Source: Zancudomyces culisetae (Eukaryota > Kickxellomycota > Harpellomycetes > Harpellales > Legeriomycetaceae). From it: a stretch of 24,132 bases of DNA. Of the stretch, positions 9,926 through 24,132 are shown piece by piece. Numbering within the stretch: the stretch's first letter is position 1; each line of letters opens with the position of its first letter. Both the position numbers and the translations under genes were made by a program. Where the stretch lies: NCBI GenBank assembly GCA_001969505.1, contig LSSK01001684.1, positions 1 to 24,132 on the forward strand, given 5' to 3'. The notes beneath the pieces are model-generated. The model searched no databases. It saw only the letters and a program-made list of their open reading frames with translations, and was not told the DNA's origin.

Positions 9926-12900
9926 ATGTATGCTGAATCCACAAGTCAACACTACAGGGAAAATGACATCACCATCTTAGAAATAGATGGGATGTATAGT
10001 ACATCCTGTGTTGAAAGTATAAAAACAATACTGCAAGCCGCCGAAGGAGTATTTGATATAAGCGTTGATTTAGATACAGGAGAAGCGACTATAGTACATT
10101 GCCTAGAAAGCATAACCAGTGATGACATATTGAGTATAGTTGTGAGAATGGGGTATAGTGCAACTATAAAGCAAACTGAGAGGCCTCTGTATAATCATAC
10201 ATCCATAAAGCTTAGCAACAGTTTACAGGTGTGCAGTGAACTTGATGGCGAGGATTATGCGCTGCAGAATAATGAAAGCACTTTGAGCAACTTTGAACAT
10301 ATTCCACAAGATAATAGCTCATACTTGGAAATAAAACTAAAATTATCTCCTCCAATAAAGGGAATTATAGAAGGAGAGTGTATAAAAAATCTTGTCCTTG
10401 GAAAAAAAGGGATCTTAGGAGTAAACGTATGTATATTCACCTCAGAAGTGTTGGTAAGATATATACCTACATGTGCCGGTCCAAAGGAGGTAATTTCTAA
10501 AATAGAAAGACTGGGATATTCAATAACTGAAAAAAATAAAGATGAGTTGTTGGTAAATGTGAAAGAGTCATTCTTCTGGATTATGAACGAATCTATAAAC
10601 GAACTAGTTAAAAGGAAAAAAAAAGATAAAAACAGGATGCTGAAGTCGGTATATCTATCAATACCAACAATCTTGATAGCTTCCATACTTAGTATAAAAG
10701 AATATACATCGTCTGGCCTATATTCATTTTTTAACAGATATCTATTCGAGGGTATACGACTAAAGGCAATAATTTCGTTGCTTTTCGCTACAACATCACA
10801 AATCTTTTTTGGAATCAGAATTTACCGAAAGATGGTGCTTTCAATTTTAAAGAAAAGGATGGATATAGACTTATTATATGGAGTTGTGTTGATTCTCATG
10901 TTTTTGGAAGGAATAGTAGCTTTGTTGATAAAGCAAGGTGATACAAAACACTTCTTGGATTCTGTAGTTATTATCACCACGTTATTCTTGCTACAGGAAT
11001 ATATTGAATCAGCAAAGAAACTACACACATATAATATGTATCAGAAGAATATAGAAAAATCAAAAATGGGATACTTGGTTGTATTGGAGAACATCGGAAC
11101 TGACACTGTTTCAAATAAACTAGGGCTATACAATGTACAGGAGTTGCAGATAGGCGATTTGATACAACTAGGAGTTAACGAAGTAGTACCTAGTGATGGA
11201 ATTCTAGTGAGTAAAATCGGTGTATTCAGCAATCTTGACTTTATGGGAAATAAATCTCCGCTACTAAAACAAAGAACCGATTCAATAATCGCGGGTTCTG
11301 TAAATATTGGCGAGGTGTGTTATATCCGGTTAACCAAAAAGATAAACGAGTCGATACTGGATACCATATTTCAAAGCATTTACTATATTTCAGAACACAG
11401 CAAGTCCAAGTTTCAACTACTAACCGAAAATATTGATAAAGTGTTTTTTCCATTAGGGGTATGTATGTCAATACTGGTATTTATAATATGGACCAATCTA
11501 AATATTTTTAATTCCACGTCATCCAATTTTTCCCAAAACAAACTGATACTGATTCTCTTTAAAGACTATTACATAAATACACGCAATAATGAACAAACCG
11601 AAAACGTGATACCTGCTGGAGGAATAAGTAAAAGTGGAATAAACAACCTTGTATTTAATGGAATAACTCAGGCCACAACAAGTGCTTTAAGTATAATCAT
11701 TATCTTATGTTCGATATCTTTATCAAGATACGTCAACTATATCATAAACTTGAGTGTTTGTGCTCTTGCAAAAAGCGGGATATTAATAAAAGACAAATAT
11801 TTGGTATTTAGCAAGGCTGCAACCTCAAATGTGGTTGTATTCAAAAGAACGGGTGTCTTGACTGTCGGGAAACCAAGGGTGCTAGATTTTGTCTCTGATT
11901 TTAAAAGCCAAGTCAGAGTACCCAAGGAATTTGAGGAATTTATTATTGGAGAATTAACCTGTTACTTTGAGAACATTGTTAGTAGTGCTGAAAGTATTAA
12001 AAAAAACCACATTGCAAAGGCTATTGTAGAGCATATCCAACTCAAAAAACCACCACCGCAAAAATACGTTACGCAAAATAAGGATCCAGTAATCCAACCC
12101 CGTATCACCAGGGATAACAGTTGTCAAAACTCTGCTGCTTCATCTGAAAATGAAATTAATATCAGCCTAGCATCGAACAATGATAGTATTTCAGAAAAAA
12201 GAAATCCTGGTGTTAGCTGTATAAACTCACTTTGTTCGTTCTCCATAGGCTCAGTAGCTTCGTCAGATATAAAACAAGGCTATGGTAGTTCCTTTTATAG
12301 TGTGGGTGATGAGACAAAAACTAAAGACAACTCCCTACTAGATACCTTTCATGTTGTCAAAGAAAACTATGATATGACTGGAAAGGAGGGTTGTGCAACT
12401 GATAAAATGTTTAAAAATATCATAGACTCATCTGTGAACCCCGAAAACCCGGACGATTGTATTCAGCAAATTTTAGATATTCCAGGAAAAGGGATGGTAG
12501 TAACAATTAGCCCATCTGTGTTTATAAAAAGTCATCTAAGCACCAACTCTGATTTAAAGGCAATCAACCTGTATATAGGGGGAGTAAAATGGCTGATAGA
12601 GAGTGGATTCAAACTTTCCGAACTCATGCGACTAAAAATTTCTAATTGGGAAAATCAGGGGCTAACGTGTATTGCTGTCGGAATTTCAGAAGTGTTGGAG
12701 AAGCGGCCATCCAGAGTTAAAAATGAGTGTATCTCAGAGTACTTTTTAAGATCAATATACACTCCAAATGGTGACCTCAAACAAAGCACTCATAAGACAA
12801 ACATGAAACATGTTTCTTTTTTTGAGAACGCAGATGAGGATAAAGATGGCGACTATGATATCGGTAACAGCTATGTGATATGTGCCTATTGTGTAGGAGA

Positions 12901-13807
12901 CAGTGTTAGGGAAACTACCAAACATGTTGTAGAGTATTTGAAGTCAAGTGGTGTGCAGGTATGGCTTGTTTCTGGTGATTCAAATGCAAGTGTCAGGAAT
13001 TTTGCGAGTAAAGTTGGCATAGAGGAGTGTATAGCTGAGACTCACATCAATAAGGTGCCTCAAATAATTAAGTTACTACAAGAAAATAGGATTCAGAGCA
13101 ATGACACAGGTGTCGAAAAATCCAATGATGGAGGTGAATCTGATATTTTTTCCGCATCCAAGACATATATAAGTTCCTTTCGGAATAATAAAATCAAGTT
13201 ATCGACTGATTACAATTTGGAAAACTACGAGTCGTTGACGCAAAAAACACTGAAAGGTACATCTTTGCCTGCAAACAGGAATCGGTTTTATAACAAAAGG
13301 AAAAATATTTTTGCGCAAGCATTTTATGGGACTTTAGACTCTCTTTTCTATCTTGTGAGATTAGTGAAGAACAAGCTAGCTAAGAAAAGTCACAATTCTT
13401 TTTGCAAAAACAATAGCAATAAAAAATCTAGGGTTATATTTGTATCCAACAACAGTACAATGGACAGTGTCTTTAATGCAGCTGATATTGGGATCTTGAT
13501 GCACACAGAAGTAGAATTAGCACGTTTAGGTAATGCTCCGATTGTTGTCCTGAATGAAACTCTCTCTTCGGTTCTGAGAATTATACTATTTGTAAAAGCT
13601 ACAAATATTTATGTAATTGTGTGCATATTGTTGTGTTCTATTTACTTTGCGCTTGTAGCGATAGTTGCAACTGGTATCTTGGTTCCTGGTTCTGGGATTG
13701 GTGCCGACCCTGTACTCTCACAGGGCTTTTTAATAGCTTTAAGTGGTTTTATGCATTTATTGAATATTGTTTTTATAAAATATTGCAGAGTTAGACTTTT
13801 GAGTTAA
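9926..13807 (+). CDS. P1B-type (Ccc2/ATP7-like) copper ATPase homologue lacking catalytic residues; probable pseudoenzyme
   Basis: This is a single intronless frame of 1293 residues. Two HMA-like domains (about 14-81 and 133-200) are followed by eight predicted membrane helices: MA and MB (about 239-298), M1 and M2 (314-361), M3 (507-527), M4 (584-612), M5 (1222-1250) and M6 (1262-1285). An A domain (about 370-500) and an N/P region (615-1205) complete the P1B layout; GILIK (618-622), KRTGVLT (640-646) and AADIGI (1185-1190) anchor the alignment. Key residues are replaced: TGES is MGNK (440-443), CPC is CSI (595-597), DKTGT is KRTGV with Lys640 for the phosphorylated Asp, SEHP is KKNH (692-695), GNR is GGV (885-887), TGDN is SGDS (1016-1019), and GDGIND is SNNSTM (1174-1179). 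Each HMA keeps only its second Cys. Asp992 and Asp1018 remain. I infer no ATP-driven transport; a sensing or regulatory role is possible. It is longer than yeast Ccc2 (about 1000 residues) through polar insertions. Confidence 0.85.
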   Translation: MYAESTSQHYRENDITILEIDGMYSTSCVESIKTILQAAEGVFDISVDLDTGEATIVHCLESITSDDILSIVVRMGYSATIKQTERPLYNHTSIKLSNSLQVCSELDGEDYALQNNESTLSNFEHIPQDNSSYLEIKLKLSPPIKGIIEGECIKNLVLGKKGILGVNVCIFTSEVLVRYIPTCAGPKEVISKIERLGYSITEKNKDELLVNVKESFFWIMNESINELVKRKKKDKNRMLKSVYLSIPTILIASILSIKEYTSSGLYSFFNRYLFEGIRLKAIISLLFATTSQIFFGIRIYRKMVLSILKKRMDIDLLYGVVLILMFLEGIVALLIKQGDTKHFLDSVVIITTLFLLQEYIESAKKLHTYNMYQKNIEKSKMGYLVVLENIGTDTVSNKLGLYNVQELQIGDLIQLGVNEVVPSDGILVSKIGVFSNLDFMGNKSPLLKQRTDSIIAGSVNIGEVCYIRLTKKINESILDTIFQSIYYISEHSKSKFQLLTENIDKVFFPLGVCMSILVFIIWTNLNIFNSTSSNFSQNKLILILFKDYYINTRNNEQTENVIPAGGISKSGINNLVFNGITQATTSALSIIIILCSISLSRYVNYIINLSVCALAKSGILIKDKYLVFSKAATSNVVVFKRTGVLTVGKPRVLDFVSDFKSQVRVPKEFEEFIIGELTCYFENIVSSAESIKKNHIAKAIVEHIQLKKPPPQKYVTQNKDPVIQPRITRDNSCQNSAASSENEINISLASNNDSISEKRNPGVSCINSLCSFSIGSVASSDIKQGYGSSFYSVGDETKTKDNSLLDTFHVVKENYDMTGKEGCATDKMFKNIIDSSVNPENPDDCIQQILDIPGKGMVVTISPSVFIKSHLSTNSDLKAINLYIGGVKWLIESGFKLSELMRLKISNWENQGLTCIAVGISEVLEKRPSRVKNECISEYFLRSIYTPNGDLKQSTHKTNMKHVSFFENADEDKDGDYDIGNSYVICAYCVGDSVRETTKHVVEYLKSSGVQVWLVSGDSNASVRNFASKVGIEECIAETHINKVPQIIKLLQENRIQSNDTGVEKSNDGGESDIFSASKTYISSFRNNKIKLSTDYNLENYESLTQKTLKGTSLPANRNRFYNKRKNIFAQAFYGTLDSLFYLVRLVKNKLAKKSHNSFCKNNSNKKSRVIFVSNNSTMDSVFNAADIGILMHTEVELARLGNAPIVVLNETLSSVLRIILFVKATNIYVIVCILLCSIYFALVAIVATGILVPGSGIGADPVLSQGFLIALSGFMHLLNIVFIKYCRVRLLS

Positions 13808-23437: not shown

Positions 23438-23587
23438 TTTACATGTTTGTTTCTTCTATTTTGTCTTTTTTTGTTAAAATTCGTACTTCATATCACTAAA
23501 TAAATACTTTTATTTAAGGTAGAATAAAAACTTGACTTTTCACTTTGTCTTTTCAATGTTTCAAGAGATTTGGTTAATATATTAAAA

Positions 23588-24132
23588 ATGAACGCAAATG
23601 TAAACAGGTTGATAGACAAGTCGAATATTACAAAGTGGATAAAGGAAGTTGGAGCAGGCCGACAAAGGAACTGGGTCGACTTACAAGCGGCCTTTCCACA
23701 GTACATGAAACACATTCTTTTCGTAGGTCGAATTCGAATAGGTCAATTTTGGACCGCCACGAGATTAGCAAATTCGGGTTTTATAGATCCAGATTACAAA
23801 GCCAAATGTCCGTTCTGTAAGAAAGAAGAAAAAGAAACAGTTGAGCATTACTTATTAGATTGCAATAGATGGGACGAAATTAGGAAGGATTTACTTACTG
23901 AATTTATAGATTTTTATAGTTCTTTTTTATCTAGCACGATTTCCGAGTGTGTTGAGCTTCGCAGGAAAATCGTGGGTAAACTCCTGGGGGAGGAGTTAAA
24001 GCTCAAACTACCTGGGATTCTTCGGGATCCAAACGCCACTTGCGTTAGAGCAGTGGTTTCCACAGCCCGGTTTCTTAACGAGACCTTTTTACCTCGCTAC
24101 CTAGTGTTGAAAGACATTAGTGTAGTCCCACT
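23588..24132 (+). mobile_element. C-terminal zinc-finger tail of a LINE-type (non-LTR) retrotransposon protein, running off the window
   Basis: From ATG 23588 the frame is open to the last base (181 codons plus 2 nt); the nearest upstream stop in frame is TAA 23525-23527. Residues 46-73 (VGRIRIGQFWTATRLA...) are followed by C74-PF-C77-x9-H87-x4-C92. This is the CCHC zinc knuckle (zf-RVT type) found after the reverse transcriptase in many non-LTR elements, whose upstream RxRxGH-like helix is also visible. No reverse transcriptase or endonuclease domain lies upstream, because RPL2 ends at 23437, so this is a 5'-truncated copy or a solitary tail gene. It is less AT-rich towards the right edge than the surrounding spacers. 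The frame has no internal stop, so it is either young or retained. Confidence 0.72.

Follow-up and report, generated by a model that had tools for sequence, protein, structure and literature searches.

A predicted pseudo-pump derived from a copper P1B-ATPase in the fungus Zancudomyces culisetae

Introduction

Can the scaffold of a P-type pump be kept by an organism for a task other than pumping? This question is raised by a locus of Zancudomyces culisetae (Harpellales) found in positions 1 to 24,132 of contig LSSK01001684.1 (assembly GCA_001969505.1), a stretch of 24,132 nucleotides which we call the window (our contig C655). It encodes a protein resembling the copper-transporting P1B-ATPases, in which the catalytic residues are replaced; we call it the pseudo-pump. 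An original prediction, made from the window itself, proposed a pseudoenzyme conserved for another role. The DKTGT motif is regarded as characteristic of P-type ATPases, and the pseudo-pump would be a clean natural case of a pump scaffold without pumping. Judged from its sequence, it is probably a P1B pseudoenzyme of full length that is maintained as a protein; a working pump is very unlikely. The reading that we favour, with evenly balanced confidence, is a maintained pseudo-pump that descends from a eukaryotic copper P1B-ATPase and acts through membrane protein contacts.

Results

The frame is uninterrupted over 1293 codons (window 9926-13807, plus strand; 1293 amino acids, aa) and lies within a stop-to-stop frame of 1323 aa with no internal stops. 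The length and coordinates originally given are exact, with residue 440 at 11243 (MGNK), Lys640 (AAA) at 11843, and residue 1174 at 13445 (SNNSTM). Contig C449 repeats the window region with 99.92% identity over 23.2 kb (blastn; 18 mismatches and one gap opening), and its copy of the frame is also intact, one base within the gene being different (Ile413 to Leu). A sequencing or assembly error was rejected as unlikely because the frame is intact on both contigs, with one codon different. Neutral drift over the divergence of the pseudo-pump would be expected to produce about 68 stops, while none is seen; therefore, it is probably a maintained protein.

Three motif replacements had been predicted, and each is found exactly at its site: KRTGV for DKTGT, with Lys640 in place of the phosphorylated Asp; MGN (residues 440-442) for TGE, without the Glu of the actuator (A) domain; and SNNSTM (residues 1174-1179) for GDGIND, without the Asp residues of GDGxND. 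The motif register comes from an alignment of the pseudo-pump with the intact copper ATPase of the same genome (contig C113, described below) and 36 canonical homologues of the 138 fetched, and the details from an alignment with C113 and five of the 138; what is said of family motifs and of what they do draws in part on general knowledge of P-type ATPases. Beyond the predicted changes, the Lys of the phosphorylation (P) domain, the His of the nucleotide-binding (N) domain, CPC, YN, and CxxC of both HMA domains are also altered in the alignment. None of the five phosphotransfer residues checked is kept. According to PMC13322241, replacement of Asp by Asn at the phosphorylation site halts the cycle in SERCA and in Na/K- and H/K-ATPases. 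With Lys640 in this position and GDGxND, TGE, and the P-domain Lys lost, a phosphorylation cycle is therefore very unlikely.

The pseudo-pump retains GILIK, Thr642-Gly643, Thr646, both GxG glycines, and SGD, and the proposed register of GILIK, TGVLT, AADIGI, and SGD was borne out against C113 and the 36 canonical homologues. Misalignment was rejected, the blocks flanking the changed motifs being aligned with all 37 canonical sequences. Among the 46 columns invariant in these (at least 95%; the incomplete P0005, P0016, and P0039 left out), 23 are kept in the pseudo-pump and 23 are changed.

The sites characteristic of copper P1B-1 ATPases are altered too: CPC of the transport helix reads CSI (595-597), YN of the next helix reads YF (1240-1241), and the CxxC motifs of the HMA domains are reduced to GMYSTSC and GIIEGEC. 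A single Cys makes a poor Cu(I) site in HMA domains. These changes weaken the suggestion, made in the original prediction, of a copper sensor, and we regard as improbable a sensor or store that would rely on the HMA domain still left and on cysteines elsewhere. HMA domain 1 does exceed the Pfam cut-off with one of its two CxxC cysteines kept, and the protein has 25 cysteines, including a CxxC (CAYC, residues 986-989, window 12881-12892) in the P-domain stretch, away from the canonical copper sites; however, all the copper sites named above are altered, and the one Cys remaining in HMA domain 1 is a poor ligand.

The architecture of a copper P1B-ATPase, from the HMA domain to the last membrane helix, had been recognised correctly, as is supported by Pfam, by similarity to ATP7B, and by an AlphaFold2 model. 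Matches over the Pfam cut-offs were obtained for an N-terminal HMA domain (PF00403, residues 18-77, 1.5e-9), for the actuator (PF00122, E1-E2 ATPase, residues 402-526, 3.3e-16), and for a HAD Hydrolase stretch (residues 965-1039, 5.1e-6); HMA domain 2, for which Pfam reported nothing, was recognised when the sequence was aligned with C113 and ATP7B. Among proteins of solved structure, ATP7B chains are the best sequence matches (7si3, 3.3e-34). In the model, the A, P, and N domains sit on a helical membrane core, with folds matching copper P1B-1 ATPases, and by our reading the core would have eight helices. To the P1B-ATPase family TIGR01525 (NCBIfam) the pseudo-pump aligns in pieces of 111.2 and 37.9 bits, below the curated cut-off of 346.25; C113, with its neighbours in frame, scores 561.7 bits.

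The copper ligands are gone, but the membrane core retains its hydrophobic segments and, in the model, its helices, and one can suggest that the membrane part now serves a task independent of ATP (as a passive channel, in lipid scrambling, or in lipid binding), the cytoplasmic domains serving as a scaffold. In TMEM94, which is P-type-like, a lipid was seen in a gorge formed by membrane helices (PMC12134183), which fits this suggestion. Nevertheless, the sequence names no substrate, and conservation within the protein is lowest along helices 1-4 (12.4% identity to C113), and we consider this explanation unlikely.

Turning back to a maintained pseudo-pump acting by contact, a working pump is encoded in the same genome (23.1 Mb in 859 contigs, duplicated contigs included). 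The proposed check for a separate intact Ccc2/ATP7 gene was positive: contig C113 carries a copper ATPase of this type (about 1350 aa) with DKTGT, TGE, CPC, and GDGIND present. Among the proteins fetched, its closest relatives are those of Smittium angustum (52% identity), S. mucronatum and S. simulii (47-48%), followed by Entomophthora muscae (39%), which points to a Harpellales-like genome. A second copy on contig C50 is cut by the contig end; its 667-aa frame was rejected as a broken copy because the contig ends there and the identity to C113 is 99.9%. In C113 (locus L012, G000:C113), the membrane-proximal HMA domain (residues ~404-470) has lost CxxC (GMGEEDEG), while three Smittium relatives retain GMTCSSC. 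A protein search of the genome with the pseudo-pump returned nothing beyond its two copies and C113.

PF00122 was found at 27 places in the genome, two of which are the pseudo-pump gene. DKTGTL is present in 16 of the 17 places scanned among the other 25 (outside the scan were C465, C716, C535, C157, C803, C510, and two on C809), and the idea that P-type ATPases are unusual throughout the host genome was thus rejected for the places scanned. On C240, DKTGTL was not seen, but there the match, on the minus strand, ends 45 bases from the contig start, so the motif would fall off the contig.

Table 1. Features of the pseudo-pump gene in the window
Feature	Position	Strand	Residues	Basis and remarks
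Pseudo copper-ATPase coding frame	9926..13807	+	1293 aa	Uninterrupted; stop-to-stop frame 1323 aa
HMA domain 1	9977..10156	+	18-77	CxxC reduced to SxxC (GMYSTSC); Pfam PF00403 1.5e-9, genome scan
Degenerate HMA domain 2	10343..10534	+	~140-203	ExxC for CxxC (GIIEGEC); alignment to C113 and ATP7B
Membrane helices 1-4	10568..11056	+	215-377	AlphaFold2 model (our reading), hydropathy
Actuator (A) domain	11129..11371	+	402-482	Pfam PF00122 3.3e-16 (match 402-526)
MGN for TGE (dephosphorylation motif)	11243..11251	+	440-442	Alignment
Membrane helices 5-6	11408..11773	+	495-616	AlphaFold2 model (our reading), hydropathy
CSI for CPC (membrane copper site)	11708..11716	+	595-597	Alignment
KRTGV for DKTGT	11843..11857	+		Lys640 replaces phosphorylated Asp; alignment
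Asn694 for N-domain His of SEHP	12005..12007	+	694	Alignment; local shift by one residue possible
N-domain insertion	12038..12475	+	~705-850	Mostly low model confidence; alignment, AlphaFold2 model
SGD, kept form of TGD	12971..12979	+	1016-1018	Alignment
Val1044 for P-domain Lys	13055..13057	+	1044	Alignment
117-aa insertion before GDG strand	13082..13432	+	1053-1169	Site of shorter insert in Harpellales copper ATPases
SNNSTM for GDGIND	13445..13462	+	1174-1179	Alignment
Membrane helices 7-8	13565..13795	+	1214-1290	AlphaFold2 model (our reading), hydropathy

The window as a whole has 36.3% GC, and the neighbouring genes with Pfam matches look ordinary: they encode PNP, histone H3, an MFS transporter, a protein like GH17, and ribosomal protein L2/L8, and there is a weak TruB piece. 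Four Harpellales assemblies are reported at about 25-29 Mb and 32-38% GC (PMC5954228). Neither Rfam nor a tRNA scan returned a match in the window. An open frame at 23570-24130 runs off the contig end; it matches zf-RVT weakly (1.1e-4, under the cut-off) and is probably a retrotransposon tail. Positions 1-958 lie outside the blastn match with contig C449, which is otherwise 99.92% identical.

Discussion

The pseudo-pump appears to retain the HMA, actuator, phosphorylation/nucleotide, and membrane architecture of its family, while the residues forming and breaking the aspartyl phosphate are lost together with the known copper ligands, leaving a protein that presumably does not pump. It may act via its fold, and contacts to some other protein of the membrane would be the likeliest way. 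The active copper ATPase of C113 is proposed as the first candidate partner, whose level, location, or cycle might be modulated, because dimerisation is reported for ATP7B, and ATP7B mutants expressed together, including an inactive one, change each other's location (PMC7418023). A more specific version of this proposal would make the pseudo-pump a non-pumping membrane regulator of this fungal lineage and the first described P1B pseudo-ATPase, a non-catalytic partner of a copper ATPase by analogy with the pseudokinases regulating kinases; we find this version possible but doubtful. Concerning the pseudoenzyme conserved for another role that was originally envisaged, a P1B pseudoenzyme kept as a protein is upheld, as is a separate intact Ccc2/ATP7-type gene in the genome, whereas conservation across species is unproven, no orthologue having been found.

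Several observations weigh against the favoured reading, the first being this lack of an orthologue. A search of 5.8 billion proteins, in which only the 7999 candidates sharing most words were scored, returned 18 matches, all 18 with DKTGT, and those covering about half of the query were 20-22% identical; no orthologue was among them, although a relative below about 30% identity (a limit estimated from shared words, with the word set guessed) could be missed. A second search with residues 432-535 gave 50 candidates, none at E <= 10. The database contains proteins of three Smittium species, whose copper ATPases were found with C113 at 29-36% identity in the searched part, and a pseudo-pump orthologue as close as these should probably have been found. 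Therefore, shared replacements cannot be traced, and the ratio of non-synonymous to synonymous substitution rates (dN/dS) is out of reach, the relatives at hand being too diverged (19-24% identity; about 20% to C113).

The other unfavourable points concern structure, residue choice, and context. The mean pLDDT (predicted local distance difference test) of the model is only 65.7, and its alignment consisted of 33 canonical pumps of the 138 homologues (P0005, P0016, and P0039 included) at 19-23% identity, so the fold match was partly fed in. In Foldseek, the best hit had a whole-chain TM-score by query length of 0.38, and none of the 50 matches listed exceeded 0.53; the A domain folded alone, without relatives, reached a pLDDT of 44.5. 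Invariant columns of functional class (known catalytic, nucleotide, or copper role) were kept in 7 of 19 cases versus 16 of 27 for the others, with classes set post hoc by ourselves; because p is 0.23, the loss is not statistically focused on functional residues, and the argument rests on the identity of the lost residues, above all the five of phosphotransfer. The neighbouring genes (PNP, histone H3, MFS, GH17, RPL8) have no evident copper link. Finally, the sole base difference between the two copies is the amino-acid change at residue 413.

This last point, together with the divergence and the missing orthologue, may also be read as the mark of a decaying pseudogene whose frame was kept by chance. 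In a tree of 22 rows (the pseudo-pump, C113, and 20 of the 138 homologues, the same three incomplete sequences left out), the pseudo-pump has a branch of 10 changes per column and no supported partner, and its synonymous-codon fit is weaker than that of C113 (0.023 versus 0.065), although C113 belonged to the reference pool, which flatters it. On the other side stand the absence of some 68 neutral stops, the retained hydropathy, and the two intact copies; a very recent loss of function would leave the long divergence with an open frame unexplained. We thus attribute a low probability to the pseudogene and retain the maintained pseudo-pump as the preferred reading.

The duplication from which this protein would descend may have happened in Harpellales or before: the insert site in the P domain is shared, but the insert content and the tree give no join. 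An insert occurs at one P-domain site in C113, three Smittium pumps, and the pseudo-pump. In the copper ATPases of Harpellales (P0022, P0033, P0042, and C113) it comprises ~31-37 residues between TGD and GDGxND and is lacking in 120 of 121 others; the distance from the TGD block to GDGxND is 69-75 aa in all four Harpellales rows and 37-41 aa in 120 of the 121 other rows, the exception being a 142-aa Varanus row. By content, the insert of the pseudo-pump is indistinguishable from shuffles (136 of 1855 reported, out of 2000 made, score as high), while each of 29 segments taken from other parts of the protein scores below it. An approximately unbiased (AU) test spoke against a Harpellales grouping (p 0.007), but the long branch makes this test unreliable.

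Among known systems, copper P1B-1 ATPases (ATP7A/ATP7B, Ccc2, HMA4, CopA) share with the pseudo-pump the HMA-M-A-M-P/N-M architecture, GILIK, TG.LT, GxG, and (T/S)GD, and they differ by the phosphorylated Asp, TGE Glu, GDGxND, P-domain Lys, N-domain His, CPC, YN, and CxxC, all of which are altered in the pseudo-pump, and by its long N- and P-domain inserts. The intact Harpellales pumps (C113; Smittium P0022, P0033, and P0042) have an insert at the same TGD-GDGxND place; however, C113 shares 47-52% identity with the Smittium pumps and about 20% with the pseudo-pump, no likeness between the inserts is detectable, and in the tree these pumps and the pseudo-pump are not joined. Being homologous to P1B ATPases and lacking what marks a working member, the pseudo-pump is predicted from its residues to be a P-type pseudoenzyme.

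The original statement that no such family is described proves too strong for P-type ATPases at large, but within P1B no pseudo-ATPase was found among the open-access matches listed; in one pseudoenzyme review (PMC10211241), a word search found neither ATPase nor transporter. A survey reports DKTGT kept in 99.77% of the P-type ATPases identified, the 22 exceptions (5 eukaryotic and 17 bacterial) being single point changes that may represent sequencing errors, non-functional, or highly specialised proteins (PMC3896382). Like the pseudo-pump, these exceptions can still be recognised as pumps although their phosphorylation motif is changed, but they carry single DKTGT changes, while the tested catalytic motifs of the pseudo-pump are altered together.

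The closest precedent is TMEM94/ERMA of animals, a protein of P-type architecture in which TGES is absent and GDGVND is replaced by GSSANL, while the Asp is kept (PMC12134183, PMC13322241). Its activity is disputed: one group detected no ATPase activity (PMC12134183), while another reported ATP-dependent Mg2+ uptake (PMC13322241). By this example, the pseudo-pump could be an active non-canonical ATPase with migrated catalytic residues, the more so as GxG, SGD, and Thr642 are kept and ERMA is reported to work without TGES and GDGxND (PMC13322241). Yet uptake by ERMA was abolished by an Asn mutation of the Asp in its DKQGIL loop (PMC13322241), where the pseudo-pump has Lys640; the P-domain Lys and both Asp of GDGxND are gone as well, and TMEM94 itself showed no ATPase activity in the hands of the first group (PMC12134183), which makes such an enzyme highly improbable. 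Compared to the maintained pseudo-pump, ERMA shares the P-type architecture, the absence of TGES, and the replaced GDGxND, but it has ten membrane helices and was found most like SPCA, whereas the pseudo-pump has Lys640, an HMA domain, P1B descent, and, by our reading of the model, eight helices. The pseudo-pump would be a second case of a P-type scaffold without pumping, beside the disputed TMEM94/ERMA.

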